Shown here piece after piece: positions 3,845 through 62,815 of a stretch of 64,000 bases of DNA. Source of the stretch: Rhodocyclaceae bacterium (GTDB lineage Bacteria; Pseudomonadota; Gammaproteobacteria; Burkholderiales; Rhodocyclaceae); contig VIKE01000007.1 in the NCBI GenBank assembly GCA_008080565.1, forward strand, positions 46,282 through 110,281, in the 5' to 3' direction. A program made the position numbers and the translations under genes. Each line of letters starts with the position of its first letter. Position 1 is the first letter of the stretch. The notes beneath the pieces are model-generated. The model saw nothing but the letters and a program-made list of their open reading frames with translations. It made no database searches and was not told where the DNA came from.

Positions 3845-4791
3845 GGCTGGCAGAGGGCGAGTGCTTCGAGGCAAAGCTGGCGATGTCGCTCGCCGCTGCC
3901 GGTCGGGATATCGACGCCGGGCAGGCGCAGGCCGTAATGGGCGTCGGCGGCATCGGCGGCGAGCACCCAACCGGTCAGGATGCCGATGCGGGTTTCGTTG
4001 GTCAGCGCGGCGTCGGTCAGTTGCCAGTCGAGCAGCAGTTCGACTTGCGCGCCGCCGGCGAATTGCTTGATCAGCAAGGGGCCGTTGGCGTTGCGGGCGC
4101 TGGCTTTCCAGGCGACATGGCGCGGTGAGTCGGCCGGCTGGCGTTCGCGGAATCCGGCGAAGTCCTCCTGGCCGCCATCGCCGCTGCGCTCGCCGCCGAG
4201 CGCTGTCGGCGAGGCCGGGGGCAGCGGCGCGGCAATCGGTTGAGGATAGACCAGGCAGCGCATGGCCGGCTGCAGGTAGGCCCAGGCGGTGAACAGGCCG
4301 AGCGGATAGCGTGTGGCCAGGCGGACGCGCGGCAGGGCGAGCCAGCCGCGGCTTTTGGCGCTGACCGGAATATTCAATTTTGTGCTTTTTTTCCGGTTGA
4401 CCGTGGCAAACACCGGATTGCCGCTTTCGGCTTCCAGTTCCAGTCCCAGGCGTGGGGTAGGGCGGTCGTTGTCGAGGGTGATCTGAAAATGCGCCATCTC
4501 GCCAGCGAAAACCGGCCCGCTTCGCCCTGGCGTGATGACCAGTCCGTGCAGGTTGCGAAAGGTGTGGATCATGCCAACGATGCCCAGCCCAACGAGCAGG
4601 AAAACCAGCGCATGACCGAGCGCCAGGTTGTAGTTGATGGCACCGATCAGCATGACGACGAGCGCCAGGGCGTAGAGCAGCCCGCCGCGCGAGGGGATGA
4701 TGAAAATGCGCCGCTGGCCGAGGCGCAGCGGTGTCGTGCCGTCGCTGCGCCAGCGAAACAGTTTTTGCTGCAGGGTGGCGACGATGCCCAC
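3841..4791 (-). CDS. DUF58 domain-containing protein
   Basis: Two N-terminal TM helices, FREYxPGD-like segment DFAGFRERQPADSPRHVAWKASARN; sits between MoxR and TgpA genes. Confidence 0.88.
   Translation of the reverse strand: MGIVATLQQKLFRWRSDGTTPLRLGQRRIFIIPSRGGLLYALALVVMLIGAINYNLALGHALVFLLVGLGIVGMIHTFRNLHGLVITPGRSGPVFAGEMAHFQITLDNDRPTPRLGLELEAESGNPVFATVNRKKSTKLNIPVSAKSRGWLALPRVRLATRYPLGLFTAWAYLQPAMRCLVYPQPIAAPLPPASPTALGGERSGDGGQEDFAGFRERQPADSPRHVAWKASARNANGPLLIKQFAGGAQVELLLDWQLTDAALTNETRIGILTGWVLAADAADAHYGLRLPGVDIPTGSGERHRQLCLEALALCQP
4372..4410 (+). repeat. Dispersed 35-40 bp motif, copy 1
   Basis: ATTCAATTTTGTGCTTTTTTTCCGGTTGACCGTGGCAAA; inside DUF58 gene (antisense to it, encoding FATVNRKKSTKLN). 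Confidence 0.85.
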
Positions 4792-4796
4792 GTTTT

Positions 4797-5747
4797 TCAG
4801 GGGATGGCGACGCTGCGGATCAGGGCGGCGATGTCTTCGGCCAGCGCGTAGCCACCACCCTGTGCCGAGCGCAGGCGATGCCGGGCAACGGCGGGGAGAA
4901 CGGCCTGGACGTCGTCGGGCAAGACCATGTCGCGCCCGGCCAGCCAGGCCCAGGCGCGCGCGGCGGCGAGCAGGGCGAGGCCGGCGCGTGGCGACAGGCC
5001 GTGCTGGAAAGCCGGGTTCTGGCGGGTCGCTTCGACCAGCGCCTGGACGTAATCGATGAGCGGTCCGGCCGCGTGGACGGCTGATGCCTCCTGCTGCAAG
5101 GCCGGCAGGTCATCGGGCGTGAGTAGTGGCTTCAATTCCTCGACGCGCCGCCGCTGGCCGCCGGCGGCGAGGAGGGCGCGTTCGGCGGTGCGGTCCGGGT
5201 AGCCGAGTTCGAGGCGCATGAGGAAACGGTCGAGCTGCGATTCGGGCAGCGGAAAAGTGCCGATCTGGTGGGCCGGGTTTTGCGTCGCGATGACGAAGAA
5301 GGGCGTCGGCAACATCCGCGTCTGGCCTTCGGCCGTGACTTGCCCTTCCTCCATCGCTTCGAGCAGGGCACTCTGGGTTTTCGGCGTGGCGCGATTGATT
5401 TCGTCAGCGAGGACCAGCTGGGCAAAGATCGGGCCGGGCAGGAAACGGAATTCGCTGCGCTCGCGCTCGAAAACGGAAACGCCGGTGATGTCCGCCGGCA
5501 GCAGGTCGCTGGTGAACTGGATACGCGAGAACTGCAGGCCGAGCAGCCGGGCCAGCGTGTGGGCCAGCGTCGTCTTGCCCATGCCGGGCAGGTCTTCGAT
5601 GAGCAAATGGCCGTCGGCCAGCAGGCAGGCAATGGCCAGCCTGATTTCATGATCCTTGCCGAGAATGATCCGGCCGGCCTGCTCGAGGACGCCGTCGAAT
5701 GCCCGCGGGCGACCGGTGAGGCCGGAAAGTGTACTTTTCAACATCAT
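4797..5747 (-). CDS. MoxR-family AAA+ ATPase
   Basis: Walker A LPGMGKTTLAHTLA, LVLADEINRATPKTQSALLEAMEEGQVT. Confidence 0.93.
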   Translation of the reverse strand: MMLKSTLSGLTGRPRAFDGVLEQAGRIILGKDHEIRLAIACLLADGHLLIEDLPGMGKTTLAHTLARLLGLQFSRIQFTSDLLPADITGVSVFERERSEFRFLPGPIFAQLVLADEINRATPKTQSALLEAMEEGQVTAEGQTRMLPTPFFVIATQNPAHQIGTFPLPESQLDRFLMRLELGYPDRTAERALLAAGGQRRRVEELKPLLTPDDLPALQQEASAVHAAGPLIDYVQALVEATRQNPAFQHGLSPRAGLALLAAARAWAWLAGRDMVLPDDVQAVLPAVARHRLRSAQGGGYALAEDIAALIRSVAIP

Positions 5748-5864
5748 ATGAGTCCGCTGTGTCAGTCCGAACCCATTCTAATGCTTGAAGCGGCGCGATG
5801 AATGGGACGATAATGACAATTCGACGTGCGCCGTTTTGTGCGCCGCTTCGCAGAGAGAGAACAA

Positions 5865-6791: not shown

Positions 6792-6876
6792 CCACTGTTT
6801 TCTTTCGGAAAAAGAACAGGGTGGGGTAAAATCCCGCCCTCTTTTTCATGTTTCCAACGTTTAACCGGACAAATCC

Positions 6877-8244: not shown

Positions 8245-8262
8245 AGCAATACAACGATGCTT

Positions 8263-10008: not shown

Positions 10009-10192
10009 GAGAAACGCTCCTTTTCAGTGATGCACAAATTTGCAAAGCGGCACACTTGCGACAGGAATGAAATCTCTCAAGTGTGCTTTTTTGCCAACGA
10101 TTGTCCATACGAAAAGCATAGATTAATCGCTCTGGCATTCAAGGAGAAGCTGTACAAAACACTGCGGGCACAGCCGTTTTTGCCAATCCGGA

Positions 10193-10226
10193 TGCCACGG
10201 TCAACCGGAAATTTTGCCCAAAATTC
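10193..10226 (-). repeat. Dispersed 35-40 bp motif, copy 2 (minus orientation)
   Basis: Reverse complement GAATTTTGGGCAAAATTTCCGGTTGACCGTGGCA; overlaps the stop codon of the mscS-like gene. Confidence 0.85.
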
Positions 10227-11853
10227 AAAGCGGTCGTTTTGCCGGCGCCGGGTACCAGTCGTCCGGCTTCACCACCTTGGCCTGCGCCGTATCGGCGAGG
10301 TAATGTGGCGACATGATCTGCACGCCAAACTCGTTGAAGACATCCTGGATATTGGCATGGAGCTGGCTCAGCACCTCGGCGCGCGGCCGCGGGCTGTGCG
10401 GGATAGCCTGGGCGACCAGCCGGTATTCCGGATAGAAATCGGAAAGGTTGGTTTGAAAGACGACGGGCGGGGGATTGTCGAGAATCCCCGGAGTCCGCTT
10501 CGCCGCGTCGATCAGCATGGCCTCGACCTGCCGCCACGGCGTGTCGTAGCCGATGGTGACGGTCGTATCGACGACATAGCCGGCGCCATCGACGGTGCGC
10601 GAATAGTTCTTGGTCACCGCCCCGGTGATCATCGAATTGGGCAGCGTCAGCTCCTCGCCGAGGCCGGTACGAATGCAGGTCGTAAACATGCCGATCCTGA
10701 CCACCGTGCCTTCATGCTCGCCAATGCGCACGTATTCGCCGGCCCGGATGGTCCGCGTGTAAGTCAGGATCAGCCCGGCCGCACCCTGGCCAACAACGCT
10801 CGAGGCGCCAAGCGAGACCATCAGGCCGAGCAGCACCGACAGCCCCCTGAACGCCTCGGTCTGGGCGCCTGGCAGATACGGATAGGCCATGGCGATGGCA
10901 AACAGCCAGATGCCGATGCCGAAAAGTCGCCGCGTCGTCGGCATGGTTTCCGGTTCCAGCCAGCTGACCGGCGTTCCGGTATGCGACACACGCTCGAAAA
11001 AGCGCCCGAGGAAACCAATGAAAACGCGCGCCAGCATGAAAATGACCAGCGCCACGCCCAGCCCGGGAATGGCGCCGAGAATGCTTTCGAGCAGGCCGCC
11101 CGCGACGTTCAGCAGGTAGTCGTTGAGGCGCTCGCCCCACGGCCGGGTGTACGGGAAACGCGAGAGCACGAAACTCAGCCATTCATAACTCAGCAACAGC
11201 ACCACCAGCCAGCGCAGGATGATCAGAAGGCGGCGCAGGAAAGGCAGCAGGTATTCGCCCTCGATCAGTTGCAGGTTGCCGATCTTCAGGTTCTCCACCT
11301 TGCGCTCGGCACGGCTCAACAGCGCGTTGGCCAGCCAGCCGCGCAGTCGGCTCAGCGTCCACAGCAGCAAGCCGAAGACCAGCGTGGCAAGCGCCGTGGC
11401 GCCCAGCGCCTTGAGCAGCGACTCCATGTTTCTCGACTCCCGCGTCTCGGCCACAATCTGCTCCAGTCGCCGCGCCGCCTGCCCGGCGACCGCCTCCGGT
11501 GTTTCCTGCAGCAGCGGGTCGGCATCGCCGGCCGTGATGACGAAAGCCAGGCGATCATCGAGCACGATCAACTGCCCTTCGGGATTGGTCCTGATGGTGA
11601 CGACCAATTCGCCCCCCTGACGCAAGGCCTCCTCGATCACCGAGCGGGCTCGTGCCGCGCGCACGGCCGGTGTTGCCCCGAGAAAGTGGGCGCGGAACAC
11701 CGTCAAAGTGCGGTTGAAAACGATCAGGCTGGCTTCTGCAGTCGCCGCCTCGGTGCCATGCGCCTTGGTCTCCGGCGCCGGCGTTGCCCAGGCCGCGCCT
11801 GTCAGCATGATGGCCGTCAGGAATAGTCCGATTGCACGCAGGGCTGCTCGCAT
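10225..11853 (-). CDS. Mechanosensitive ion channel family (MscS-like)
   Basis: Multiple TM helices; VLLGLMVSLGASSVVGQGAAGLILTYTRTIRAGEYVRIGEHEGTVVRIGMFTTCIRTGLGEELTLPNSMI. Confidence 0.9.
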   Translation of the reverse strand: MRAALRAIGLFLTAIMLTGAAWATPAPETKAHGTEAATAEASLIVFNRTLTVFRAHFLGATPAVRAARARSVIEEALRQGGELVVTIRTNPEGQLIVLDDRLAFVITAGDADPLLQETPEAVAGQAARRLEQIVAETRESRNMESLLKALGATALATLVFGLLLWTLSRLRGWLANALLSRAERKVENLKIGNLQLIEGEYLLPFLRRLLIILRWLVVLLLSYEWLSFVLSRFPYTRPWGERLNDYLLNVAGGLLESILGAIPGLGVALVIFMLARVFIGFLGRFFERVSHTGTPVSWLEPETMPTTRRLFGIGIWLFAIAMAYPYLPGAQTEAFRGLSVLLGLMVSLGASSVVGQGAAGLILTYTRTIRAGEYVRIGEHEGTVVRIGMFTTCIRTGLGEELTLPNSMITGAVTKNYSRTVDGAGYVVDTTVTIGYDTPWRQVEAMLIDAAKRTPGILDNPPPVVFQTNLSDFYPEYRLVAQAIPHSPRPRAEVLSQLHANIQDVFNEFGVQIMSPHYLADTAQAKVVKPDDWYPAPAKRPL

Positions 11854-11933
11854 TTCAAGTCTCCATCCAAATCGGGCCGGGCTTTTCTCGCCGGTCATCT
11901 TTATGCATTCTAAATTCGCCGGCATAACCAGCG

Positions 11934-12206
11934 TCAAGTTTCTGCCCGGCCAAGCCCCAGAGAGGCCGCATACCGGCGCTTCTCGCCGGGTGACAACTGC
12001 TTGATCCGGTATTCCGCCTTCGAGGCCGATGAACGATCAGGATGGTTTTCGTAACCAAGCAGCCGGAGCGGCGGATGCGAGCGCGTATAGCGCGCACCGG
12101 TGCCGGCGCAATGAGCGGCGTAGCGACCGGCCACGTCGACCGCGATGCCGGTATAAATGCTGCCATCGACGCACTCGATCATGTACAGAAACCAGGGCTT
12201 GCTCAT
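11934..12206 (-). CDS. GIY-YIG nuclease family protein
   Basis: WFLYMIECVDGSIYTGIAVDVAGRYAAHCAGTGARYTR. Confidence 0.9.
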   Translation of the reverse strand: MSKPWFLYMIECVDGSIYTGIAVDVAGRYAAHCAGTGARYTRSHPPLRLLGYENHPDRSSASKAEYRIKQLSPGEKRRYAASLGLGRAET

Positions 12207-19192: not shown

Positions 19193-20641
19193 ATGACTTT
19201 TCAGCAATTCCTTCTCATCCTCTGGGCCCGCCGCAAGCTGGCGCTGTCGGTTTTTGGCGTCACCGTGCTGACCACGCTGGTCATCAGCCTGATCCTGCCC
19301 AAGGAATACACCGCCACCACCTCGCTGGTCATCGACGTCAAATCGCCCGACCCCATCGCCGGCATGATCATGCAGGGCATGATGGCACCCGGCTACATGG
19401 CGACGCAGATGGACATCATCACCAGCGACCGCGTCGCCACCCGCGTCGTCAAGCTGCTTGGTTTTGAAAAGAGTGCCCAGGCTGTCGAGAACTGGAAGGA
19501 AGCCAGCGAAGGCAAGGGCACGCTGGAAAGCTATTACGCCGGAATCCTACAAAAGAAGCTCGACATCAAGCCCTCCCGCGAGAGCAATGTCATCAACGTG
19601 AATTTTTCGGGTGCCGACCCGGTGTTTGCCGCGGCTGTCGCCAACGCATTTGCCCAGGCCTACATCGACACCTCCATCGAAATGCGCGTCGAACCGGCTC
19701 GCCAATACAGCGCCTGGTTTGAAGAGCGCCAGAAAGGCTTGCGCGCCGCGCTGGAAAAAGCCCAGTCCCGCCTTTCTGCCTACCAGCAGGAAAAAGGCAT
19801 CGTCGTGACCGACGATCGCATGATGGACAACGAAACAGCGCGCCTCAACGACCTCACCATGCAGCTTTCCGCCGCCCAGGCCCAGCGCGCCGACGCCTCC
19901 AGCCGGCAAAAGAGCGGCACCAGCGAACTCTCGCTTGAAGTGCTGCAAAATCCGCTGGTCCAAGGGCTCAAGGCCGAAATCGCTCGCGCCGAATCGCAGC
20001 TGTCGCAGATCAGCAGCAATTTCGGCAAGAATCACCCGCAAGTTCAGCAGCTCGAAGCCCAGATCGCCGAACAGCGCCAGCAACTGCGTGAAGAAATCGG
20101 CCGCATTTCCGGTGGCAATGCCGTTGCCAGCAAGTTCGGCGTCGTCAAGCAGGATGAGCTCAAGAAGGCTATCGAAGAGCAGAAAAAACGGGTGCTGGAT
20201 CTGCGCTCCCAGCGCGATGAACTGTCTGTGCTGGTCAATGATGTCGAAACTGCCCGCCGCGCCTACGAGGCCGTCGGCCAGCGCATGATGCAAAGCAACC
20301 TCGAAGGCCAGTCGCAGCAGACCAACGTGCTCGTGCTTAGCCCGGCTACCGAGCCGACCCAGCACTCCAAGCCCAAGGTCTTGCTTAACGTGCTGGTTTC
20401 CATCTTCCTCGGCGCCATGCTCGGCGTCGGTGCCGCACTCGTGCTTGAACTCGGCCAGCGCCGCATCCGCTCGGCCGAAGACCTCACCCTGGCGCTTGAC
20501 CTGCCAGTGCTGGCCGAACTCGATTCCACGCTGCCCAGGGCAAAAAGAGGATTTCGATTTTGGGCGAAAAATCCGGTTGACCGTGGCAATCGCGAACCCG
20601 CTCTCAATACCGGCAATCAGCCAGCCGCAGCGAAGGCCTGA
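19193..20641 (+). CDS. epsF: Chain length determinant protein EpsF
   Basis: Wzz domain with N- and C-terminal TM helices and long coiled coil; contains the dispersed motif in its C-terminal tail. Confidence 0.85.
   Translation: MTFQQFLLILWARRKLALSVFGVTVLTTLVISLILPKEYTATTSLVIDVKSPDPIAGMIMQGMMAPGYMATQMDIITSDRVATRVVKLLGFEKSAQAVENWKEASEGKGTLESYYAGILQKKLDIKPSRESNVINVNFSGADPVFAAAVANAFAQAYIDTSIEMRVEPARQYSAWFEERQKGLRAALEKAQSRLSAYQQEKGIVVTDDRMMDNETARLNDLTMQLSAAQAQRADASSRQKSGTSELSLEVLQNPLVQGLKAEIARAESQLSQISSNFGKNHPQVQQLEAQIAEQRQQLREEIGRISGGNAVASKFGVVKQDELKKAIEEQKKRVLDLRSQRDELSVLVNDVETARRAYEAVGQRMMQSNLEGQSQQTNVLVLSPATEPTQHSKPKVLLNVLVSIFLGAMLGVGAALVLELGQRRIRSAEDLTLALDLPVLAELDSTLPRAKRGFRFWAKNPVDRGNREPALNTGNQPAAAKA
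20551..20591 (+). repeat. Dispersed motif, copy 3
   Basis: GATTTCGATTTTGGGCGAAAAATCCGGTTGACCGTGGCAATC; in epsF 3' end (RFWAKNPVDRGN). Confidence 0.9.
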
Positions 20642-21633: not shown

Positions 21634-21655
21634 CGAGATGCACAGGCTATGACGT

Positions 21656-21694
21656 TTCATTTTTTGGCAAAAATTCCGGTTGACCGTAGCAATC
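21656..21694 (+). repeat. Dispersed motif, copy 4
   Basis: TTCATTTTTTGGCAAAAATTCCGGTTGACCGTAGCAATC; intergenic, 20 bp before xrtB. Confidence 0.9.
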
Positions 21695-21713: not shown

Positions 21714-22616
21714 ATGAACCTCGCAGCAGAAAATGAGCCGATATTGCCAATGGAACCCCGACCGGCCATCGCCGATTGGTTCCCCATTTTTATCGGCCTC
21801 ATCGCCCTCTACGTGCCTACCTGGGTCAATCTTTCCAGCACCATCTGGGCTACCGAAGCACAGGCACACGGGCCCATCATCCTCAGCGTGGCCTTGTGGT
21901 TTTTCTGGAAACAGCGCCTTGTCATCCACGAGATGGCTGCTGCGCCCTCAAAGGCCGGCTGGCCGCTCTTCATTCTTGGCCTGCTGCTCTACGCCATCGG
22001 CCGCTCACAAGAAATTTTGCTCTTTGAAGTCGGCTCGCAAATCATCGTTATTGCCAGCCTGCTGCTTATCCAGCGTGGCTGGACAGCCCTGGGCATCGCC
22101 TGGTTTCCCCTATTTTTCCTGCTCTTCATGATCCCACTTCCCGGCGCTTTTGTGGATGCGCTGACTATGCCAATGAAGATGGCCGTATCCTATGTGTCCG
22201 AAAACGTCCTCTACTGGGTCGGCTACCCCATCTCGCGGAGCGGAGTCATCCTGCAGATCGGCCAGTACAAACTGCTCGTTGCCGATGCCTGTGCTGGCCT
22301 GCAAACACTATTTACCCTTGAAGCGCTTGGCCTGCTCTATCTCAACATCGTTCGCCACGATTCGTTCTTCAGAAACGTTACCTTGGCCATTCTCATCATC
22401 CCCATCTCGTTCACCGCCAACGTCATCCGCGTCATGGTGCTCACACTCATCACCTACCACTTTGGTGACGAAGCAGGGCAGGGCTTCCTGCACGGCTTTG
22501 CCGGCATGGTGCTGTTCGTCACAGCGCTGTTGATCATCATGGGTGTTGATTCGCTGCTTCAACTTGGCGAAAAGCGCTGGCGTGGGCAGGCTGTCGTAAA
22601 CAAGGTGCAAGCATGA
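21714..22616 (+). CDS. xrtB: Exosortase B
   Basis: Polytopic membrane protein with catalytic motifs VADACAGLQTLF (Cys), ANVIRVMVL (Arg), GFLHGFAGM (His). Confidence 0.92.
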   Translation: MNLAAENEPILPMEPRPAIADWFPIFIGLIALYVPTWVNLSSTIWATEAQAHGPIILSVALWFFWKQRLVIHEMAAAPSKAGWPLFILGLLLYAIGRSQEILLFEVGSQIIVIASLLLIQRGWTALGIAWFPLFFLLFMIPLPGAFVDALTMPMKMAVSYVSENVLYWVGYPISRSGVILQIGQYKLLVADACAGLQTLFTLEALGLLYLNIVRHDSFFRNVTLAILIIPISFTANVIRVMVLTLITYHFGDEAGQGFLHGFAGMVLFVTALLIIMGVDSLLQLGEKRWRGQAVVNKVQA

Positions 22617-32479: not shown

Positions 32480-33586
32480 ATGAAAAAAACTATAAGAATA
32501 CTTGGTACTCGCGGCGTGCCTGCCGCACACGGCGGCTTTGAAACCTTTGCCGAATATCTGGCCCTTTTTCTCGTTGACCGTGGATGGCGCGTGGTGGTGT
32601 ATTGCCAGGAAGATGGTAGCGGCCCGGTGTTCAACGATACGTGGTGTGGCGTCGAGCGGGTGCGTATTCCCGTTGCTCAGACTGGCCCCAAGGGCACGAT
32701 AGTGTTTGATTGGAAGGCAACGGCGCATGCGGCGCAGTTTGGCGATTTGTGTTTGACGCTGGGTTACAACACGGCGGTGTTTTGCAGCCTGTTGCGAGTG
32801 AAGGGCATTCCCAACCTGATCAACATGGATGGCATCGAGTGGTCGCGTGCCAAGTGGGGTGGCGTGGCCAAGACGTGGTTCTGGATGAACGATTGGGCCG
32901 GTTGCTGGCTGGGTAATCATCTGGTGGCGGACCACCCGCAGATCAAGGTGCATCTGGAGTCACGCGTGCGCGGTAGCAAGATCACGACGATTCCCTATGG
33001 AGCCGACGAAGTGCTGGCGGCGGATGAGGCGCCGGTGCGTGCGCTCGGGGTTGAGCCGGGGCGTTATCTGACGGTGGTTGCTCGCGCCGAGCCGGAAAAC
33101 TCGTTGCTGGAGATTGTGCAGGGGTTTTCTGCGGCGAAACGTGGTTATCGCTTGGTTGTACTGGGCAACTATCAGGATGAAAACGTTTATCACCGGGCGA
33201 TCAAGAGCGCGGCGAGTGAGGAGGTTTTGTTCCCCGGGGCTATCTATGACAAGACGGTCGTGCAGGCTTTGCGCTTTCATAGCGCGGCTTATGTGCACGG
33301 CCATCAGGTGGGCGGCACCAATCCCTCATTGGTTGAGGCGCTGGGGGCCGGGAATGCAGTCATTGCCCACGACAACCGCTTCAATCGTTGGGTGGCAGGG
33401 GATGGGGCGGTGTATTTCAACGGGGCGGAATCGTTCTCGGCGCAACTAGGGCAATTGTTGGCGGAGCCTTCGCGCTTGCAGGTCCTCTCGTCCAAGAGTC
33501 GCGAGCGCTTCCATCAGGAGTTCACTTGGCCGCATGTGCTGGCGCAGTACGAGGATTTATTGGCCAGGTATTTGCCCGGCAAATGA
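32480..33586 (+). CDS. Glycosyltransferase with DUF1972 N-terminal domain
   Basis: IRILGTRGVPAAHGGFETFAEYLALFLVDRGWRVVVYCQ, GIEWSRAKWG, VGGTNPSLVEALGAGNAVIAHDNRFNRWV. Confidence 0.9.
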   Translation: MKKTIRILGTRGVPAAHGGFETFAEYLALFLVDRGWRVVVYCQEDGSGPVFNDTWCGVERVRIPVAQTGPKGTIVFDWKATAHAAQFGDLCLTLGYNTAVFCSLLRVKGIPNLINMDGIEWSRAKWGGVAKTWFWMNDWAGCWLGNHLVADHPQIKVHLESRVRGSKITTIPYGADEVLAADEAPVRALGVEPGRYLTVVARAEPENSLLEIVQGFSAAKRGYRLVVLGNYQDENVYHRAIKSAASEEVLFPGAIYDKTVVQALRFHSAAYVHGHQVGGTNPSLVEALGAGNAVIAHDNRFNRWVAGDGAVYFNGAESFSAQLGQLLAEPSRLQVLSSKSRERFHQEFTWPHVLAQYEDLLARYLPGK

Positions 33587-33675
33587 ATTCGGAATAGTCC
33601 GTTGGGACTAGTTGGTGCATCGCAAAGGCATAACAAGTTTGGCGATAATTCTTTTTTTTGTGATTGGAACAGGCT

Positions 33676-34737
33676 ATGAGTATTCTCGTTACCGGTGCAG
33701 CAGGATTTATTGGCAGTAATTTCGTATTGGACTGGCTGGCCCAGTCCGATGAGCCGGTCATCAACCTCGATGACCTGACCTATGCAGGCAACCTTGAAAA
33801 CCTCGCTTCGCTTGATGGCGATGCGCGGCATATTTTCGTCAAGGGCAGCATTGGCGACTTTGATCTGGTTTCGAAGTTGCTGGCCGAGCACCAGCCGCGG
33901 GCGGTGGTCAATTTTGCGGCCGAATCGCACGTCGACCGCAGCATTCATGGCCCGGAAGACTTCATCCAGACCAATATCGTCGGCACCTTCCGTCTGCTGG
34001 AGGCGGTGCGGGCTTTCCACGGTCAACTGGAAAAAACGGCCAAAAATGAATTCCGTTTTCTCCATGTGTCGACCGACGAAGTTTACGGTTCGCTGGCCAA
34101 GGACGAGCCGGCCTTTACCGAAACCCACCAGTACGAGCCGAACAGCCCGTACTCGGCGAGCAAGGCAGCGAGCGACCATCTGGTGCGCGCCTACCACCAC
34201 ACCTACGGCCTGCCGGTGCTGACCACCAACTGTTCCAACAACTACGGCCCCTACCACTTCCCGGAAAAGCTCATCCCGCTCGTCATCCACAATGCGCTGG
34301 CCGGCAAGCCGCTGCCGATCTACGGCGATGGCCAGCAGATTCGTGACTGGCTCTACGTCAAGGATCACTGCAGCGCCATCCGCCGCGTGCTTGAAGCCGG
34401 CAAGGTCGGCGAGACCTACAACGTCGGCGGCTGGAATGAAAAGCCGAATCTGGATGTCGTCCATACGCTGTGCGCCATCCTCGACGAACTCAGCCCGCGG
34501 GCTGACGGCAAGCCGTACAAGGAGCAGATTACCTACGTCACCGACCGCCCCGGCCATGATCGTCGCTATGCGATTGATGCGACCAAGATCGAACGCGAAC
34601 TGGGCTGGAAGCCGGCGGAAACCTTCGAGACCGGCATCAAGAAGACGGTGCAGTGGTATCTCGATAACCAGGCCTGGGTGGCCAATGTGACGAGCGGCGC
34701 TTACCAGAACTGGGTTGGCAAGCAGTACAGCGCCTGA
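33676..34737 (+). CDS. rfbB: dTDP-glucose 4,6-dehydratase
   Basis: [42 protein letters not shown]. Confidence 0.95.
34016..34056 (-). repeat. Dispersed motif, copy 5 (minus orientation, degenerate)
   Basis: TTCCACGGTCAACTGGAAAAAACGGCCAAAAATGAATTCCG inside rfbB. Confidence 0.65.
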
Positions 34738-35808: not shown

Positions 35809-36687
35809 ATGCGTAAAGGCATCATCCTGGCCGGCGGTTCCGGCACCCGTCTCTACCCGGTCACCCTGGCCGTTTCCAAGCAGCTGCTGCCGATCCACGA
35901 CAAGCCGATGATCTACTATCCGCTGACGACGCTGATGCTGGCGGGGATTCGCGACATCCTGATCATCTCGACGCCGCAGGATACGCCGCGCTTTCAGCAG
36001 TTGCTGGGCGACGGCAGCCAGTGGGGCCTCAACCTGCAATATGCCATCCAGCCCAGCCCGGACGGCCTGGCCCAGGCCTTCATCATCGGTCGCGATTTCG
36101 TCGGCAATGGCGACAGCGCGCTGGTCCTCGGTGACAACATTTTCTACGGCCACGAGTTTGCCAACGATCTGGGCGCAGCCGGTGCCCAGACCAGCGGCGC
36201 GACGGTCTTCGCTTACCACGTGCATGACCCGGAACGTTACGGCGTGGTCGAGTTCGACGCCGCCGGGCAGGCGATCAGCCTGGAAGAGAAGCCGAAGGTG
36301 CCGAAGTCGAATTACGCGGTGACCGGTCTCTATTTCTACGACAACCAGGTCCTCGACATCTCGCGTGATCTCAAGCCGTCACCGCGTGGCGAGCTGGAGA
36401 TCACCGACGTCAATCGCGTCTATCTCGAGCGCCAGCAGTTGAACGTCCAAGTCATGGGCCGCGGCCACGCCTGGCTCGATACCGGCACCCATGAAAGCCT
36501 GCTCGACGCCAGCCAGTTCATCGCCACCATCGAAAAGCGTCAGGGTCTCAAAGTGGCGTGTCCGGAAGAAATCGCCTACCGTAAGAGTTGGATCGATGCC
36601 GGCCAACTTGAGAAGCTGGCCCAGCCGATGATCAAGAACCTTTACGGCCAGTACCTGATGAACGTGCTCAAGGAAAGGGTGTTCTGA
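35809..36687 (+). CDS. rfbA: Glucose-1-phosphate thymidylyltransferase
   Basis: [38 protein letters not shown]. Confidence 0.96.
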
Positions 36688-37229
36688 TGCGCGCGATACC
36701 CACCGCCATTCCGGATGTGATCGCGCTCTATCCCAAGGTTTTTGGCGACGACCGCGGTTTTTTCTACGAGAGCTACAACCAGAAGGTCTTTCAGGAAGCC
36801 ACCGGGCTGGATGTGACCTTCGTCCAGGACAACCACTCCAAATCTGCCCGCAACGTGCTGCGCGGCCTGCACTATCAAGTGCAACATCCGCAAGGCAAGC
36901 TGGTCCGCGTGGTGCAGGGCGAGGTCTTCGATGTTGCGGTCGACATCCGCAAAGGCTCGAAAACCTACGGTCAGTGGGTTGGTGAATTGCTGTCGGCGGA
37001 CAACAAACGCCAGCTGTGGATCCCGCCCGGCCTGGCGCACGGCTTTGTCGTGCTCTCCGAAACGGCAGAATTCCTCTACAAGACGACGGATTACTATGCC
37101 CCGGCCCATGAGCGCTGCATCGCGTGGAATGACCCGGATCTGGCAATTGACTGGCAGCTTGAAGGCGAACCGCTGCTCTCGGCCAAGGATGCGGCTGGGC
37201 AACGGTTTAGGGATGCGGTTGGGGAGTAG
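36687..37229 (+). CDS. rfbC: dTDP-4-dehydrorhamnose 3,5-epimerase
   Basis: DRGFFYESYNQKVFQEATG, QDNHSKSARNVLRGLHYQ, IPPGLAHGFVVLSE. Confidence 0.95.
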   Translation: MRAIPTAIPDVIALYPKVFGDDRGFFYESYNQKVFQEATGLDVTFVQDNHSKSARNVLRGLHYQVQHPQGKLVRVVQGEVFDVAVDIRKGSKTYGQWVGELLSADNKRQLWIPPGLAHGFVVLSETAEFLYKTTDYYAPAHERCIAWNDPDLAIDWQLEGEPLLSAKDAAGQRFRDAVGE

Positions 37230-37286: not shown

Positions 37287-37327
37287 ATTTTGTTTTTGGG
37301 CTAAATTTCCGGTTCACCGTAGCAATC
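37287..37327 (+). repeat. Dispersed motif, copy 6
   Basis: ATTTTGTTTTTGGGCTAAATTTCCGGTTCACCGTAGCAATC; intergenic between rfbC and manC-like gene. Confidence 0.88.
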
Positions 37328-37347: not shown

Positions 37348-38793
37348 ATGTTCATGACCCAGATTCTCCCCGTCGTTCTCTCCGGTGGTTCCGGCACGCG
37401 TCTATGGCCGCTGTCGCGCGAGAAATACCCGAAGCAGCTGTTGCCGCTGGTTGGCGAACAGTCGATGTTGCAGGCGACGGTAGCTCGTCTTGGTGGCCTG
37501 GCCGACATGGCGGGGCCGCTGCTCGTTTGCAACGAAGAACATCGTTTTGTCGTCGCCGAGCAAATCCGCACCCTCGGTTTGCACGGCTCGGTCCTGCTTG
37601 AACCCTTCGGCCGCAACACCGCTCCGGCCCTTGCCCTGGCCGCCCTGTGGGCGGTGCGCGATGGCGAAGATCCGGTCCTCGTTGTCATGCCGGCCGATCA
37701 CGACATCGCCGATGGCGCCGCCTTCCGTGACGCCGTCAGCCGCGCCGTCACCCTGGCCGAAACCGGCGTCACCGTCACCTTCGGGATCACCCCTGATTGC
37801 CCCGAAACCGGCTACGGCTACATCCAGCGCGGCCAGGCCCTGGCCGATGGCTCTGGCGCCTTTGCCTTGGCCCGCTTCGTTGAAAAGCCCGATCGCCCGA
37901 CCGCCGAAAGCTACCTCGATTCCGGTGACTACCTCTGGAACAGCGGCATCTTCGTCATGAAGGCCTCCGTCTGGATCGCCGCCCTCGGCGTCTGTCGCCC
38001 CGACATTCTGGCTGCCTGCCAACAGGCCCTGGCCGGCGGCAAGACCGATGGCGACTTCGTTCGTGTCGACGTTGAAGCCTTCAAAGCTTGCCCTTCCGAC
38101 TCCATCGACTACGCCGTCATGGAACGCCTGACCACCGGCGGTGCCGGCCTGCCCAAGGCCGCCGTCATCCCGCTCACCGCCGGCTGGTCCGACGTCGGCG
38201 CCTGGGATGCACTGTGGAAAGTCCTGCCCAAATGCGGCGAGGGCAACGCCACGCGCGGTGACGTCATGCTCGAAAACTGTCGCGATACGCTGGTTGTCTC
38301 GGAAAGCCGGCTCGTTGCCTGCATCGGCGTCAGCAACCTCGTTGTTGTCGAAACCGACGACGCCGTGCTTGTTGTCCATCACGACGCCACGCAAGACGTC
38401 AAAAAGATCGTCGACCGGCTCAAAGCCGACAAACGCAGCATCGCCCAATGGCACCGCAAGGTCTATCGCCCGTGGGGCTGGTACGACGGCGTCGATGCCG
38501 GCGAACGCTTCCAGGTCAAGCGCATCGGCGTCAAGCCGGGCGGCACCCTGTCGCTGCAAATGCACCACCACCGCGCCGAACACTGGATCGTCGTCAGCGG
38601 TACGGCCCGCGTGACCAAGGGCGAAGAAACCTTCCTGGTCACCGAAAACCAGTCAACCTACATCCCGCTCGGCGTCACCCACCGCCTGGAAAACCCCGGC
38701 ATCGTGCCGCTTGAGATGATCGAGGTGCAGTCCGGCAGCTACCTCGGCGAGGACGATATCGTGCGCTTTGAGGATACTTACGGGCGGAGCTGA
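37348..38793 (+). CDS. Mannose-1-phosphate guanylyltransferase/mannose-6-phosphate isomerase
   Basis: ILPVVLSGGSGTRLWPLSREKYPKQLLPL; C-terminal cupin RPWGWYDGVDAGERFQVKRIGVKPGGTLSLQMHHHRAEHWIVV. Confidence 0.95.
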   Translation: MFMTQILPVVLSGGSGTRLWPLSREKYPKQLLPLVGEQSMLQATVARLGGLADMAGPLLVCNEEHRFVVAEQIRTLGLHGSVLLEPFGRNTAPALALAALWAVRDGEDPVLVVMPADHDIADGAAFRDAVSRAVTLAETGVTVTFGITPDCPETGYGYIQRGQALADGSGAFALARFVEKPDRPTAESYLDSGDYLWNSGIFVMKASVWIAALGVCRPDILAACQQALAGGKTDGDFVRVDVEAFKACPSDSIDYAVMERLTTGGAGLPKAAVIPLTAGWSDVGAWDALWKVLPKCGEGNATRGDVMLENCRDTLVVSESRLVACIGVSNLVVVETDDAVLVVHHDATQDVKKIVDRLKADKRSIAQWHRKVYRPWGWYDGVDAGERFQVKRIGVKPGGTLSLQMHHHRAEHWIVVSGTARVTKGEETFLVTENQSTYIPLGVTHRLENPGIVPLEMIEVQSGSYLGEDDIVRFEDTYGRS

Positions 38794-45500: not shown

Positions 45501-46043
45501 TCAGGGTTGCGGATGCGGATTGAAATTAAAGCGTTTTTTCGTGTCGACCGTGGCAATCGACTGTAGCGGCAGGTTCTGCCAGCGGATATCGCCGGAACCG
45601 GTTTCCATGAAGCTGAGAATGGCTTCATCGCTCGCCGGTTGGCCGTTGCCGTCACGGCATTCAGCCAGAAATTGCGTCAGATCGCGATCATTGAGCAGCC
45701 CAATGCCCAGACTCGTTTCGAGCAGGATGCTGCCTTCCTCGTCGAGGTAAATCGCCTTGATTTCCCCGGCTGGCTCGCCGGTATGGCTGACGAAGGACTC
45801 GCCGTCGCGGCGGAATACCCAGGGTGTGTAGGCCAGTTCGACGAACACCCGTTGCGGGCCGTTCTGCAGGAACCAGCAGCCTGATTCGTCACAACCGTAC
45901 TGCCGGTTGATGAACTGGATCAGGCCGCTGTGCATCACGCGCTCTCCCTGCAATCGCCAGTCGCCCCGCCGGTCGAGCGACAACCAGTCGTAACAGGCGG
46001 GGACGTTGGGCCACTTGGCGATGGCAGAGAGATCGACTGCCAT
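45501..46043 (-). CDS. Conserved hypothetical protein (DUF2946-like, tentative)
   Basis: [76 protein letters not shown]; family name not certain. Confidence 0.65.
   Translation of the reverse strand: MAVDLSAIAKWPNVPACYDWLSLDRRGDWRLQGERVMHSGLIQFINRQYGCDESGCWFLQNGPQRVFVELAYTPWVFRRDGESFVSHTGEPAGEIKAIYLDEEGSILLETSLGIGLLNDRDLTQFLAECRDGNGQPASDEAILSFMETGSGDIRWQNLPLQSIATVDTKKRFNFNPHPQP
45520..45558 (+). repeat. Dispersed motif, copy 7
   Basis: TTGAAATTAAAGCGTTTTTTCGTGTCGACCGTGGCAATC; antisense in 3' end of the 45501-46043 gene. Confidence 0.8.
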
Positions 46044-48862
46044 CAGTCTTCGTAGGCAGACATCGGCGGGCAGGCGCAGTTCAGGTTGCGGTCGCCGTAC
46101 ACATCGTCGATGCGATTGACGCTCGGCCAGAACTTGTTGGCAGCCACCCAGGGCAGCGGGAAGACTGCCTGTTCGCGGCTGTACGGATGCGACCATTCAC
46201 CGTCGATGACGTCCGCCTGCGAATGCGGGGCATTCTTGAGCGGGTTGTTGTCAGCCGACCAGACGCCATTTTCGATCTGGCGGATTTCCTCGCGAATGCT
46301 GACCAGGGCTGCGATGAAGCGGTCCAGTTCGGCCTTCGATTCGGATTCGGTCGGCTCGACCATGATCGTGCCGGCCACCGGGAAGGATACCGTCGGTGCG
46401 TGGAAGCCGTAGTCCATCAGGCGCTTGGCGATGTCGGTTTCGCTGATCCCGGTCGCTGCCTTGAGCGGGCGGATGTCGAAGATGCACTCGTGCGCCACGC
46501 GGCCGTTCTTGCCGACGTAGAGCACGGGGTAATGCGCCTTCAACTGCTGGGCAACATAGTTGGCGTTGAGGATGGCGACTTGCGTGGCCTTCTTGACGCC
46601 TTCGCCGCCGAGCATGGCGAGATACATCCACGAAATGGTCAGGATCGAGGCCGAGCCGAACGGGGCGGCAGAGACCGCGCCCTGGCCGGCATTGACGCGG
46701 TTGGCGTCGCCCGTTGGCTGGACGGCGTGGTCGGCCATGAACGGTGCCAGATGAGCCTTGAGGCCGATCGGGCCCATGCCCGGTCCGCCGCCGCCGTGCG
46801 GGATGGCGAAGGTCTTGTGCAGGTTCATGTGGCTGACGTCGGCGCCGATGAAGCCGGGCGAGGTCAGGCCGACCTGGGCGTTGAGGTTGGCGCCGTCCAT
46901 GTACACCTGGCCGCCGTTGGCATGGACGATGGCGCAGATCTCGCGGACCGCTTCCTCGAACACGCCGTGGGTCGACGGGTAGGTGATCATCAGGCAGGCC
47001 AGGTCGTCCTTGTGGGCTTCGGCCTTGGCCTTGAGGTCGGCGACATCGACGTTGCCGTTCTCATCGCAATCGACGACGACGACCTGCATGTTGGCCATCT
47101 GGGCCGTCGCCGGGTTGGTGCCATGCGCCGATTTCGGGATCAGGCAGATATCGCGATGGCTGTCGCCACGGCTGGCGTGGTAGCGCGCAATGGCGACCAG
47201 GCCGGCGTATTCGCCCTGGGCACCGGAGTTCGGCTGCATGCAGATGGCGTCGAAGCCGGTGACGGTCTTCAGCCAGTCAGTCAGGCTGGCGATCATTTCC
47301 AGATAACCTGCGGCCTGATCGCGCGGGGCGAAGGGGTGCAGACCGCCGAATTCCGGCCAGGTGACCGGGATCATCTCGCTGGTCGCGTTGAGCTTCATGG
47401 TGCACGAGCCAAGCGAGATCATCGAGTGGTCGAGCGCCAGGTCCTTGTTCTGCAGCGACTTGAGGTAGCGCAGCATCTCGTGTTCGGTGTGGTGCGTGTT
47501 GAACACCGGATGCTGGAGGACGGCGTCGCTGCGGATCAGTGCATCGGGCAGGGCGGAGTCGGCGGCGGCGACCTGGGCGTCGATGACATCCATGTCGAGC
47601 GTGACCTGGGTGATCAGCTTGAACAGCGTGGCGACATCGCTGCGCGTCGTCGTTTCGTCGAGCGAAATACCGAGGACGCCGGCCGAGACGCGGCGCAGGT
47701 TGTAACCGGCTGCCAGAGCGTCGAGGTAGACGGTTTCAGCGCGGGCGCCGAGGTCGAGATGGACGGTGTCGTAGAACTGCTTGGTCAGGAGACTGACGCC
47801 GGCGCGCTTGAGGCCTTCGGCCAGGATGGCGGTCAGACGGTGGATACGGCCGGCGATGGTGCGCAGGCCTTCAGCGCCGTGATAGACGGCGTACATGCCG
47901 GCCATGTTGGCCAACAGGACTTGCGACGTACAGATGTTGGAGTTGGCTTTCTCGCGACGGATGTGCTGTTCGCGGGTCTGCAGCGCCATGCGGTAGGCCG
48001 TCTTGCCGCGGGCATCCTTGGACAGGCCGATGATGCGGCCCGGCATCGAGCGGACGAAGGCTTCGCGGGTGGCGAAGAAAGCGGCGTGCGGGCCGCCGAA
48101 GCCCATCGGGATGCCGAAACGCTGGCTCGAGCCGAGGGCGATGTCGGCGCCCATGGCGCCGGGCGACTTGAGCAGGACCAGCGCCATGAGGTCGGAGGCG
48201 ACCGCAACGGTCGTACCCTTGGCTTTCAGCGCGGCGATGGTGGCGGTCAGATCGCGGACTTCGCCGTTGTCGCCCGGGTACTGGAGCAGGGCGCCGAAGA
48301 AATCTTCACTTTCGATTTTTGCGGCATTTTCCGGGTTGACCGTGGCAATGACCAGTTCGAAGCCGAAATAGCCGGCGCGGGTCTTCACCACGTCGATGGT
48401 CTGCGGGAAGCAGTTGGCATCGACCAGGAAGCGGTTGGATTTCGACTTGGAAACACGACGCGCCATGGTCATCGCTTCAGCGGCGGCGGTGGCTTCGTCG
48501 AGCAGCGAGGCATTGGCGATTTCCAGGCCGGTCAGGTCGACGACCATCTGCTGGAAGTTCATCAGCGCTTCCAGGCGGCCCTGGGCGATTTCAGCCTGAT
48601 AGGGCGTGTAGGCGGTGTACCAGCCCGGGTTTTCCAGAACATTGCGGACGATGACCTTGGGTGTCAGCGTGTCGTAATAGCCCATGCCGATGCAGGACTT
48701 GTTGACGACGTTCTTGCTGGCGATGGCCTTGAGGTCGGCCAGCGCTTCGTGTTCGCGACGTGGAGCAGGCAGCGGCAGATCGGCCGGCAGGCGGATGGCG
48801 GCGGGGACGGTCTGGTCGATCAGCTGCTCGAGGCTATCGGCGCCGATGGCTCTCGGTTCCCG
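46043..48862 (-). CDS. gcvP: Glycine dehydrogenase (P protein); 5' end appears truncated
   Basis: Very strong P-protein sequence ([43 protein letters not shown]); open frame upstream reaches ...[22 protein letters not shown] then hits TAG at 48863-48865 with no ATG/GTG until 48685. Confidence 0.85.
48312..48349 (+). repeat. Dispersed motif, copy 8
   Basis: TCGATTTTTGCGGCATTTTCCGGGTTGACCGTGGCAAT; antisense inside gcvP ([15 protein letters not shown]). Confidence 0.85.
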
Positions 48863-48887: not shown

Positions 48888-49274
48888 TTAGGCGGCGTCG
48901 GCGACGGCCTGGTAGGCTGCAGCGTCGAGCATCTTGTCGAGGTCGGCGGCGTTGTCCGGGGTCATCTTGAACAACCAGGCAGCGTAGGCATCCTGATTGA
49001 CCGACTCCGGTGCATCGGCCGCAGCCTGATTGACTTCGGTGACGGTGCCGGAGATCGGGGCGTACACGTCAGCCGCAGCCTTGACCGATTCAACGACGGC
49101 GATTTCCTTCTCGGCATCGTAATGGGTGCCGACTTCCGGCAGTTCGACGAAAACCAGGTCGCCAAGGGCTTCCTGGGCGTGGTCGGTAATGCCGACGGTG
49201 ACGGAGCCGTCAGCGTTGAGCAGCATCCATTCGTGGGAGGCGGCGTACTTGAGGTTGGCGAGGACGTTGGACAT
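48888..49274 (-). CDS. gcvH: Glycine cleavage system H protein
   Basis: [60 protein letters not shown]. Confidence 0.95.
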
Positions 49275-49298: not shown

Positions 49299-50390
49299 TT
49301 AGATGACTGCTTTGCCGTTGCGGGCGAATACGGGTTTGGTGACCTTGGCCTTGAGCGCCTTGCCACGGATATCAACTTCGACTTCGTCGCCGATCTGCAC
49401 ACCGAGCGGCAGGCGGGCGAGGGCGATGGATTGCTGGAGCGTTGGCGAGAAACTACCGGAGGTGATTTCACCATCGCCTTGCTTGGTCATGACCTTCTGA
49501 TGGCCGCGCAGCACGCCCTTGTCGAGCAGGATCAGGCCGAGGAACTGTTTCTGCTGGCCATTGGCGAGCAACGCAGCCTTGCCGACGAAATCGCGCTCGG
49601 TATTCAGAGAAACTGTCCAGGCCAGACCGGCGTCGAGTGGCGAAACAGTCTCATCCATGTCCTGGCCGTAGAGATTCATCCCGGCCTCGAGGCGCAGCGT
49701 GTCGCGGGCGCCGAGGCCGCACGGGGCGACGCCGGCGGCGTTGAGCTTGTTCCACAGCGCTTCGGCTTCGCCGGCCGGCAGCATGATTTCGTAGCCGTCT
49801 TCGCCGGTGTAGCCAGTGCTGGCGATGAAATACTGATCGACTTCAGCGGCAAAGAAAGCCTTCAGGCCTTCTGTAGCTGCCTTGGTCTGCGGCAGCACTT
49901 CCCAAACCTTGGTGCGGGCATTCGGACCCTGCACGGCAATGATGCCGAGGTTGTTGGCGCCATCGCGGCGCTGGGTGATGGTCACGTCGAGTTTCCACTC
50001 GGCGACCTTGGCCTGCATCCAGGCCAGATCCTTTTCGGCCGTGCCGGCATTGACCACGATGCGGAAGCGCGTGTCGGTCAGGAAATAGATGATCAGATCG
50101 TCAATGACGCCGCCGGCTTCGTTGAGCATGGCCGCGTAGAGTGCCTTGCCGGACACCTTGAGCTTGGCCACGTCGTTGGCGACGAGGCGGGAGAGAAAAG
50201 CGCGGCAATCGGCGCCAACAACATCAACCGGGCACATGTGCGAAACGTCGAACATGCCGCAGTTGTTGCGGACCGCGTTGTGCTCCTCGATCTGCGAACC
50301 GTAGTTGACCGGCATGTCCCAACCACCAAAATCCACCATCCGGGCATTCATTGCGCGGTGAGCGGCATTCAAAACCGTTTTCTTCAGCAT
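49299..50390 (-). CDS. gcvT: Glycine cleavage system aminomethyltransferase T
   Basis: [52 protein letters not shown]. Confidence 0.95.
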
Positions 50391-50429: not shown

Positions 50430-50473
50430 AACGGAAAAAGGGTGAAACGAAAGAATGGTCTTTCGTTTCACCC
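50430..50473 (-). terminator. Expression-platform terminator of glycine riboswitch
   Basis: Minus strand GGGTGAAACGAAAGACCATTCTTTCGTTTCACCCTTTTTCCGTTT. Confidence 0.8.
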
Positions 50474-50645
50474 CTCTGTCCTCGATACCTGAGAGATTTG
50501 CCCCATCGGTGGATGTCGGTAATAGCCGCCATCGCTCTCCAGAGTTTTTTGGCTTGCGCCTTGTTCCGCGGTCCTTTTGCCTGAGCGTTTTCGGGTGGAT
50601 TTGCGCCTTCGGCGGCAGACGGATCTGCGCTCTCCCACGGAACGG
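50472..50645 (-). promoter_or_regulatory. Tandem glycine riboswitch upstream of gcvT
   Basis: Minus strand: GGGAGAGCGCAGATCC...GCCGCCGAAGGCGCAAATCC...CTCAGGCAAAAGGACCGCGGAACA then CTCTGGAGAGCGATGGCGG...CCGATGGGGCAAATCTCTCAGGTATCGAGGACAGAGG. Confidence 0.9.
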
Positions 50646-50756
50646 GTGGCACTATAACGGGATGCTGCGGTCTGATCAACCTGCTGCACCGCACAAGGGG
50701 CTCAGGGCATGGCCTCGTTCGTGCTAGAATCTTCGTTTGCCTTCAACTGCTTACCT

Positions 50757-55229: not shown

Positions 55230-55743
55230 GGCAGCGCTGCTCGCCGCGCGCGAGCCGATGTCGCCAAGCGATATGAAAAAGATGTTCGACGAGGATTTGT
55301 CGACCGATACCCTGCGCAAGTTGCTCGACGAGTTGCGCGAGGAATGGTCCGAACGTCCGGTCGAACTGATTCAGCTCGCCTCTGGCTGGCGCTTCCGGAC
55401 GCGGCCCGAATACTTGCCTTATCTTGAGCGCCTGAACCCTGAGCGGCCGCCGAAATACTCGCGGGCCGTCCTCGAAACCCTGGCCATCATCGCCTATCGT
55501 CAACCGGTGACGCGCGGTGATATCGAGGAAATCCGCGGCGTCGCGGTCAATACCAACGTTGTCAAAACACTCGAAGAGCGCGGCTGGATCGATGTTGTCG
55601 GCCATCGCGAAACACCAGGTCGGCCGGCCCTGTTTGCCACCACCAAGCAATTTCTCGATGATCTGGGACTGAGAAGCGTCAGTGAACTGCCGCCGCTTGA
55701 ACAAATCGCCCAGACGCTGGAGCTGAATTATGAAAACCAATAA
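55198..55743 (+). CDS. scpB: Segregation and condensation protein B
   Basis: [24 protein letters not shown]...[32 protein letters not shown]. Confidence 0.93.
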
Positions 55744-56755
55744 ACGCACACCTCTCCGTTCCGCCAGCAAGCCGGGCGGATTTCAAAAACGGCCGGAAAT
55801 TCCGGTTGACCGTGGCAATCCCGCCCCGCGTGGTCGTACCACCGGCAATGCCCGCGAAGAGGCGCCCGAGGCCGAAGAAGTGGTCGAGGCGCCCAAGCCG
55901 CGTCGCCGTGCCGCGCTGCCGGCAACCGGCCGGGCCAGTCGCGGCAATATCGCGCGGAATGGCAAGGCGGTCGTCGAAGCCAAGCCGGAGCGCTTGCAGA
56001 AAATTCTGGCCCAGGCCGGTGTCGGCTCGCGTCGCGAAATGGAAGAGTGGATTTCGGCTGGCAAGGTCACAGTCAATGGTGTTGTTGCAACCATCGGCCA
56101 GTCCGTCGTGCCGACCGACAAGGTCAAGATCGGCGGCCGTCTGATCAATATCCGCTTTACCGGCAGCACTCGTCCGCCGCGTGTCCTGATGTATCACAAG
56201 CCGGAAGGCGAAATCGTCTCGCGCGACGACCCGGATGGCCGTCCGTCTGTCTTCGCTGCGCTGCCGCGCATGCGCGGCGGCCGCTGGATCAACGTTGGCC
56301 GTCTCGACTTCAATACCTCCGGCCTGCTGATTTTCACGACTTCCGGCGACCTGGCTAACAAACTGATGCACCCGAGTTCACAACTGGTTCGTGAATACGC
56401 GGTGCGTGTCCTTGGCGAGCTGACCCTCGAAGCGCAACAGCAATTGCTGCATGGTGTCGAACTCGAAGATGGCCGGGCCAATTTCGGGACATTGCACGAC
56501 GGTGGTGGTGAAGGTGCCAACCATTGGTATCGCGTGACGATTTTTGAGGGCCGCAACCGCGAAGTGCGTCGAATGTTCGAGGCGGTCGGGGTTACGGTCA
56601 GCCGATTGATCCGCGTCCGCTACGGCCCGTTCGTGCTGCCTCCACAATTGAAACGCGGCATGGCGCGAGAGCTCAAAGAGGTTGAAATCAAAATGCTGCT
56701 GCGCGACCTTGAAAACAACGCGCCAGCCCCCCGAAAGGGCCCTGAGAGCACCTAA
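55730..56755 (+). CDS. rluB: 23S rRNA pseudouridine synthase RluB
   Basis: S4 domain [49 protein letters not shown]. Confidence 0.9.
55780..55820 (+). repeat. Dispersed motif, copy 9
   Basis: ATTTCAAAAACGGCCGGAAATTCCGGTTGACCGTGGCAATC in rluB N-terminal extension ([10 protein letters not shown]). Confidence 0.9.
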
Positions 56756-56865: not shown

Positions 56866-56873
56866 TTGTGGCT

Positions 56874-58808: not shown

Positions 58809-58825
58809 GCGGGAGGTAGCAAAGT

Positions 58826-61537: not shown

Positions 61538-61908
61538 TGAAGAAAAAAGGATTTCAGCGTAGTGACCGGGTCGCGGAGCAGGTACGCCGCGACCTTGCCG
61601 ATCTGATTCGGACTGAATTGAAGGATCCGCGCGTCGGCATGATCAGCCTGACAGCTGTTGAGCTGACGCCGGATTACGCCCATGCCAAGGTGTTTTACGC
61701 GACACTCAATTCCGATCATCTGGAAGAGATCGAGCGTGGCCTCAAGCGGGCGTCCGGTTTTCTGCGGCGAGAGCTGGGGCGTCGTATCCATATCCATACT
61801 CTGCCTGAGTTGCATTTCGTTTACGACAACTCCATCGAGCATGGCGCCAGCATGTCGCTGTTGATCGATCAGGCTAACGCGCTGAGCGATCAGACGCCGG
61901 AAGACTAA
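61537..61908 (+). CDS. rbfA: Ribosome-binding factor A
   Basis: RSDRVAEQVRRDLADLIRTELKDPRVG. Confidence 0.95.
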   Translation: MKKKGFQRSDRVAEQVRRDLADLIRTELKDPRVGMISLTAVELTPDYAHAKVFYATLNSDHLEEIERGLKRASGFLRRELGRRIHIHTLPELHFVYDNSIEHGASMSLLIDQANALSDQTPED

Positions 61909-61915
61909 GCACGCC

Positions 61916-62815
61916 ATGCAAGTCAAGAAGACCTGGAAACAGGTCGATGGAGTGCTGTTGCTCGACAAACCCATCGGATTCACCTCCAACGACGCGCTGC
62001 AAAAGGCGCGTCGCTTGTTTTCCGCGGCCAAGGGCGGCCATACGGGTACCCTTGATCCTTTGGCAACGGGCTTGTTGCCGCTGTGTTTTGGCGAGGCGAC
62101 CAAATTTTCGGCCGACTTGCTCGATGCCGATAAAACCTATGAAGCCGTTCTCAAGCTGGGCGTCACTACCGATTCCGGGGATGCTGAAGGCAAGGTGACG
62201 GGGACTTCCACGGTCAACACGGAAAAAGCGGCAATTTTGAAATTGCTGCCGCAATTCACCGGCGATATTCAGCAGATTCCACCGATGCATTCGGCGCTAA
62301 AGCGTGATGGTCGCCCGCTCTATGAGCTGGCTCGCCAGGGTATCGAGGTCGAGCGCGAGGCGAGGGCGGTGACGATTCACGCCATTGATCTGCTCGACTT
62401 TGCTGGCGACGCGCTGACGCTACGCGTGGCGTGCAGCAAGGGCACCTACATCCGCGTGCTGGCGGCTGACATCGGGGCTGCGCTCGGTTGTGGCGCCCAT
62501 CTGACAGCGTTGCGGCGAACCCGGGTTGGTGATCTCGATCTGGAGGGAGCCGTAACCCTGGTTGAGCTTGAGGGGCTCGATGAAGCAGGGCGCATAGAGC
62601 ACCTTAAACCGGTCGATGCACTGTTGCACACCTTGCCCATCCTGACTGTCGAAGGCGAAGCTGCCCAGCGTTTCAGTCACGGCAATCCCGTTGACTTGCC
62701 GGCCGGCCTGAGCGGCAAGATTCGCGTCTATGAGAACGGCAAGCTGATCGGTATCGGCGAACCTGGCTCGGGGGATCGTTTGTGGCCAAAACGGCTGGTT
62801 CAACTCGCTGATTAA
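61916..62815 (+). CDS. truB: tRNA pseudouridine(55) synthase TruB
   Basis: GVLLLDKPIGFTSNDALQKARRLF...KGGHTGTLDPLATGLLPLCFGEATKF. Confidence 0.95.
   Translation: MQVKKTWKQVDGVLLLDKPIGFTSNDALQKARRLFSAAKGGHTGTLDPLATGLLPLCFGEATKFSADLLDADKTYEAVLKLGVTTDSGDAEGKVTGTSTVNTEKAAILKLLPQFTGDIQQIPPMHSALKRDGRPLYELARQGIEVEREARAVTIHAIDLLDFAGDALTLRVACSKGTYIRVLAADIGAALGCGAHLTALRRTRVGDLDLEGAVTLVELEGLDEAGRIEHLKPVDALLHTLPILTVEGEAAQRFSHGNPVDLPAGLSGKIRVYENGKLIGIGEPGSGDRLWPKRLVQLAD
62206..62243 (-). repeat. Dispersed motif, copy 10 (minus orientation)
   Basis: TTCCACGGTCAACACGGAAAAAGCGGCAATTTTGAAATT inside truB (STVNTEKAAILKL). Confidence 0.75.

Follow-up and report, generated by a model that had tools for sequence, protein, structure and literature searches.

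The Neisseriaceae and Pasteurellaceae were named in a 2025 paper as the only families with known uptake sequences (PMC12616744). The uptake signal sequence (USS) of Pasteurellaceae consists of a core and two A/T segments with a spacing of roughly one turn of the helix, and 65% of the USS in Haemophilus influenzae are intragenic (PMC1626085). With an orthologue gap test, Redfield et al. excluded insertion as the origin of the Haemophilus USS (PMC1626085). Literature searches returned no paper that joins 'DNA uptake sequence' with Dechloromonas or Rhodocyclaceae, and only incidental matches, judged by title, for Dechloromonas together with natural transformation.

The 41-bp motif described here is likely to be a DNA uptake signal sequence, for which receptor binding, uptake and molecular drive are proposed below. 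It resembles the Pasteurellaceae USS (Hin/Apl) in combining a core with two A/T-rich segments that lie roughly one turn of the helix from each other, and the likeness extends to an origin by substitution, a mostly intragenic location, the absence of an orientation bias, the existence of subclade dialects and the occurrence of some opposite pairs (PMC1626085). In contrast, the USS cores AAGTGCGGT and ACAAGCGGT are unrelated to the core GGTYGACCG, as a comparison found no relation to either of them, the USS has a total length of ~32 bp instead of 41 bp, and the motif studied here has a betaproteobacterial host, a lower density and a role in uptake that we infer. The DUS of Neisseriaceae is similar in forming several dialects with an invariant core in a compact clade and inverted pairs at terminators, and the overlapping dyad-symmetric forms of the Simonsiella DUS are like the palindromes of the congener G148 (PMC3630211). 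Unlike the motif, the DUS is a continuous 10-13-mer with an unrelated core and without flanking A/T tracts, and its receptor is established as ComP, whereas the receptor of the motif is putative. Intragenic copies with a reading-frame preference are likewise comparable to uptake sequences (PMC2346458).

Motif copies in the window and the host genome

The window, i.e. the whole stretch of 64,000 nucleotides that was analysed, sits on contig C65 of the 5.2-Mb draft genome G000. A sequence-only reading of the window had listed a repeat at ten places, and the motif is present at all ten coordinates, on the + strand at seven of them and on the - strand at three. Seven of these copies lie wholly within predicted genes, an eighth overlaps the end of a gene and the remaining two are intergenic, so that the accompanying remark that the repeat 'carries no gene' is misleading. 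The intragenic copies are located at 4371..4411 (+, 48.7 bits) inside a predicted gene without a Pfam match (3841-4791, -), at 20551..20591 (+, 49.9 bits) close to the 3' end of a Wzz/GNVR chain-length gene (19193-20641, +), at 34012..34052 (-, 50.4 bits) within an NDP-sugar dehydratase gene (33664-34737), at 45518..45558 (+, 38 bits) inside a DUF2946 gene (45501-46043, -), with an equal length in motif-poor relatives, at 48310..48350 (+, 46.9 bits) inside gcvP (46043-48685, -), where most motif-poor relatives are 15 bp shorter, at 55780..55820 (+, 44.6 bits) in a pseudouridine synthase gene (55730-56755), within its variable N-terminal part, and at 62203..62243 (-, 45.7 bits) inside truB (61916-62815), with an identical length in 8/8 motif-poor relatives. 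The copy at 10190..10230 (-, 50.4 bits) overlaps the 3' end of an MscS-type channel gene (10225-11937, -), and the intergenic copies are found upstream of an exosortase gene (21714-22616) at 21654..21694 (+, 48.4 bits) and upstream of a mannose-1-P guanylyltransferase gene (37348-38793) at 37287..37327 (+, 45.7 bits). The ten-copy list had missed three weaker, diverged copies, situated at 32548..32588 (+, 24.5 bits) in gene 32516-33586, at 33906..33946 (+, 23.9 bits) in the NDP-sugar dehydratase gene and, as the weakest of all, at 36929..36969 (-, 17.0 bits) within gene 36687-37229. The window also contains an exopolysaccharide/exosortase cluster, in which the exosortase (EpsH) gene neighbours the Wzz-like gene and NDP-sugar genes, and a tandem glycine riboswitch at 50466-50647 (-), upstream of the minus-strand genes 49299-50390, 48888-49274 and gcvP.

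Whole-genome enrichment, which had been set beforehand as a test, was borne out: allowing at most one mismatch, GGTTGACCGTGGCAA has 306 matches in G000 (150 forward, 156 reverse) vs 4 for the reversed pattern. When 464 kb of G000 were scanned with a 41-bp weight matrix, 65 sites scored 20 bits or more, and the reversed sequence gave none. More than 1,000 copies are dispersed over the G000 chromosome, the majority within ordinary genes; the density is ~240 sites/Mb in G000 and 240-630 unique sites per Mb across the genomes scored. Among 11-mer words, the motif is the top over-represented one in G000, G148 and G162. The G000 consensus, ATTTCAWTTTTGGCCNWTTTTTCCGGTTGACCGTGGMAATC, has an information content of ~34 bits and consists of two A/T tracts ~11 bp apart, followed by the core CCGGTTGACCGTGGMAA. 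The left arm, previously described as variable and A/T-rich, is A/T-rich but not merely variable, as its two T/A tracts occupy fixed positions with a distance of 11 bp between them. Four-base A/T runs in four motif-bearing genomes are enriched up to ~20-fold if they start at -19 relative to GTYGACCG and up to ~16-fold if they start at -8, with a weaker second tract in G156 (~5-fold); enrichment at these two positions was not found in the motif-free G151.

The fraction of sites inside predicted genes amounts to 68% in G000 and 72% in G162, based on home-made gene predictions, and the intragenic sites display a strong reading-frame preference (p 2e-8 to 3e-36, G000/G162). A replication-strand bias was not found in three complete genomes, for which the ratios of leading to lagging sites are 54:55 (G162), 149:136 (G148, including palindromic double calls) and 124:142 (G156), and the sites extend along these whole chromosomes without restriction to a single domain. 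Six low-GC 20-kb pieces (120 kb) contained no strong sites vs 23 expected, with the caveat of 6% draft contamination. One of these pieces was tested and has homologues in only 1/12 relatives, and nine proteins scanned from motif deserts (glycan, hydantoinase, MMPL and similar) included no classic mobile-element genes. An apparent excess of inverted motif pairs in G148 proved to be an artefact, as 95 pairs each consist of a single palindromic core that was counted once per strand.

Dialects, origin and maintenance

Among named genomes, an exact 19-mer of the motif matched almost exclusively MAGs and isolates labelled as Azonexus, Dechloromonas, Azonexaceae or Betaproteobacteria/Rhodocyclaceae. 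Several of the 19-mer-bearing contigs show 88-92% identity to stretches of G000, and one of them (HGW-Betaproteobacteria-6) is identical to the genus member G168. Because of the similarity of these contigs to G000, the host is regarded as a putative member of the Azonexus/Dechloromonas group. A family-wide search revealed that the G000 form is confined to its own genus, and close relatives form a clade with 200-350 copies of it per genome. The congener dialects GGTCGACCGTGA and GTYGACCGCAG share the two-tract architecture. De novo word counting in two other congeners, run without using the motif, returned CGGTCGACCGTGA as the top word in G148 and a strong enrichment of GTYGACCGCAG in G156, ranked after an apparent CRISPR repeat, while no word of this kind was found in G151. 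Iterative models recovered one common layout in all motif-bearing genomes modelled. In G148 (loci L188-L207), the core CACGGTCGACCGTG is perfectly palindromic, and some of the copies form complete hairpins that carry T-tracts and probably double as terminators. In G156 (sampled loci L208-L227), a TTGTAGCTCCCTCTCTCACCCCGGAAAGCTACAA-like repeat is present in ~49 copies and probably represents a CRISPR array.

Of the 77 genus genomes, 42 are motif-rich, with 67 or more occurrences of the generic pattern AWTT-N15-GTYGACCG, and the remaining 35 are motif-poor, with no more than 42. None of 393 sampled genomes from the order's other genera is motif-bearing, each having 10 or fewer occurrences of the pattern. 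In a nusA-infB tree, the motif-poor G204 (14 copies) is the sister of the motif-rich G153 (300 copies) with 100% support, and loss or gain of the motif is therefore recurrent.

Orthologous-site alignments place the copies at common positions throughout the motif-rich clade, while motif-poor species exhibit a different sequence of equal length, sometimes a partial motif. At 55 coding sites with alignable motif-free orthologues, the length difference was 0 in 51 cases and 3-15 bp in four; considering strong sites only, it was zero in 12/14 and 12-15 bp in 2/14. An element-sized gap (25-60 bp) relative to motif-free orthologues was found at none of the 55 coding sites, and the controls were alike, which indicates that the copies arose by substitution in place. 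Between species, the high-information positions diverge by 6%, the low-information positions by 15% and the flanks by 12-15%; as the high-information positions change less than the flanks, the sites are maintained.

Competing explanations and the competence machinery

Several alternatives can account for a long motif that recurs throughout a genome. One of the roles initially suggested, a miniature mobile element or REP/MITE-like repeat dispersed through an ancestral genome by transposition, shares with the motif a short length and a dispersal in hundreds of copies, and the strong consensus with rather few sites of intermediate strength in G000, an inverted head-to-head pair at locus L016 and the hairpins of G148 would agree with it. 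However, insertion gaps were seen at 0/55 coding and 0/14 strong sites, which refutes this role, and relatives hold partial motifs at the corresponding places. REP/MITE repeats insert, reside mainly between genes and usually form hairpins, whereas the present motif lacks insertion gaps, is mainly intragenic and forms no stable hairpin in its G000 version. A REP-type hairpin was rejected, since shuffled sequences fold as well as the G000 consensus (z -0.9 and 0.6) and only the palindromic G148 form folds better than its shuffles. Transposition is highly improbable as the source of the copies. A recombination or replication-polarised signal would, like KOPS, matS and Chi, be a dispersed functional chromosomal motif, and frequency and over-representation conform to a Chi- or KOPS-like signal. 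It is contradicted by the leading/lagging symmetry in G162, G148 and G156, on which the KOPS-like role proposed at the outset foundered, and a signal of this kind has next to no probability. Chi and KOPS are also far shorter than the 41-bp motif, for which neither strand polarity nor domain restriction was seen.

The main surviving rival holds the motif to be a genome-wide binding site: an intracellular protein of the nucleoid-associated, segregation or macrodomain type would recognise it, and selection acting on how the chromosome is organised would preserve it. Hundreds of dispersed copies and their conservation at orthologous positions are in line with such a site, and the palindromic core GGTCGACC of the G148 dialect fits a dimeric protein. 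Nevertheless, the missing replication-strand bias, the spread over whole chromosomes and a 34-bit consensus far stronger than usual regulator sites speak against it, and the fast change of dialects together with recurrent absence within one genus would be unusual for a chromosome-organising site, making this explanation rather unlikely. The interpretation as an uptake signal sequence is preferred because abundance on both strands, origin in place, intragenic frame bias, dialects, A/T tracts with a spacing of one helical turn, maintenance of the sites and their rarity in low-GC accessory DNA match it together, and to our knowledge no other class of sequence combines these features. Of the recombination or uptake tag considered in the sequence-only reading, the uptake part is consequently supported. 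Under the proposed mechanism, the core would be recognised at the cell surface by a receptor, which is probably a minor pilin of the type IV system, and the two A/T tracts, one helical turn apart, would help the DNA to bend on entry. Competent cells would preferentially take up conspecific DNA, and through such biased uptake, in conjunction with recombination, the copies would accumulate and persist in place.

Against an uptake sequence, it can be argued that the motif, with 41 bp and ~34 bits, is longer than known uptake sequences, that the G000 density of 240/Mb lies below the roughly one site per kb of the classical USS and that inverted terminator-like pairs are rare in G000. In addition, none of the candidate receptor families profiled tracks the motif. 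The host carries components of the competence/type IV pilus machinery, namely ComEC (an 821-aa open frame), ComP_DUS-family and FimT-family proteins, and the ComP_DUS-family and FimT/GspH-family pilins adjoin each other on contig C85. Every congener with a completeness of 90% or more and a contamination of 5% or less possesses ComEC. Phyletic profiles show that ComEC, ComP_DUS and GspH/FimT occur in motif-rich and motif-poor congeners alike, and these families therefore do not explain the presence or absence of the motif. Two ComEC matches, in G182 (contig C33:109525-144033) and G204 (contig C1:2218607-2251879), are split by ~33-34 kb at a common point, residue ~28 of the domain, which suggests that a large element has integrated into comEC at one and the same site in two different species. 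The motif-poor G204 further presents a FimT/GspH match with two in-frame TGA codons (C1:4106297-4106500), which, together with the interrupted comEC, fits a loss of competence.

Taken as a whole, these observations make it fairly probable that one Azonexaceae genus represents a third lineage with sequence-specific transformation, independent of Pasteurellaceae and Neisseriaceae, which converged on the Pasteurellaceae architecture, diversified into several dialects, one of them fully palindromic, and underwent repeated loss or gain among sister species. Known bearers of uptake sequences are mostly host-associated, and the Azonexus/Dechloromonas group is apparently free-living in freshwater and wastewater. 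If this interpretation is correct, the self-tagging of DNA would have evolved at least three times, and the A/T-tract architecture would be convergent and hence mechanically important. How an uptake code is gained, shifts between dialects and decays could then be traced within one genus, whose clade of 77 genomes would permit a search for the receptor by matching candidates to dialects, and tagged DNA would provide a practical handle for genetics in the Azonexus/Dechloromonas group.
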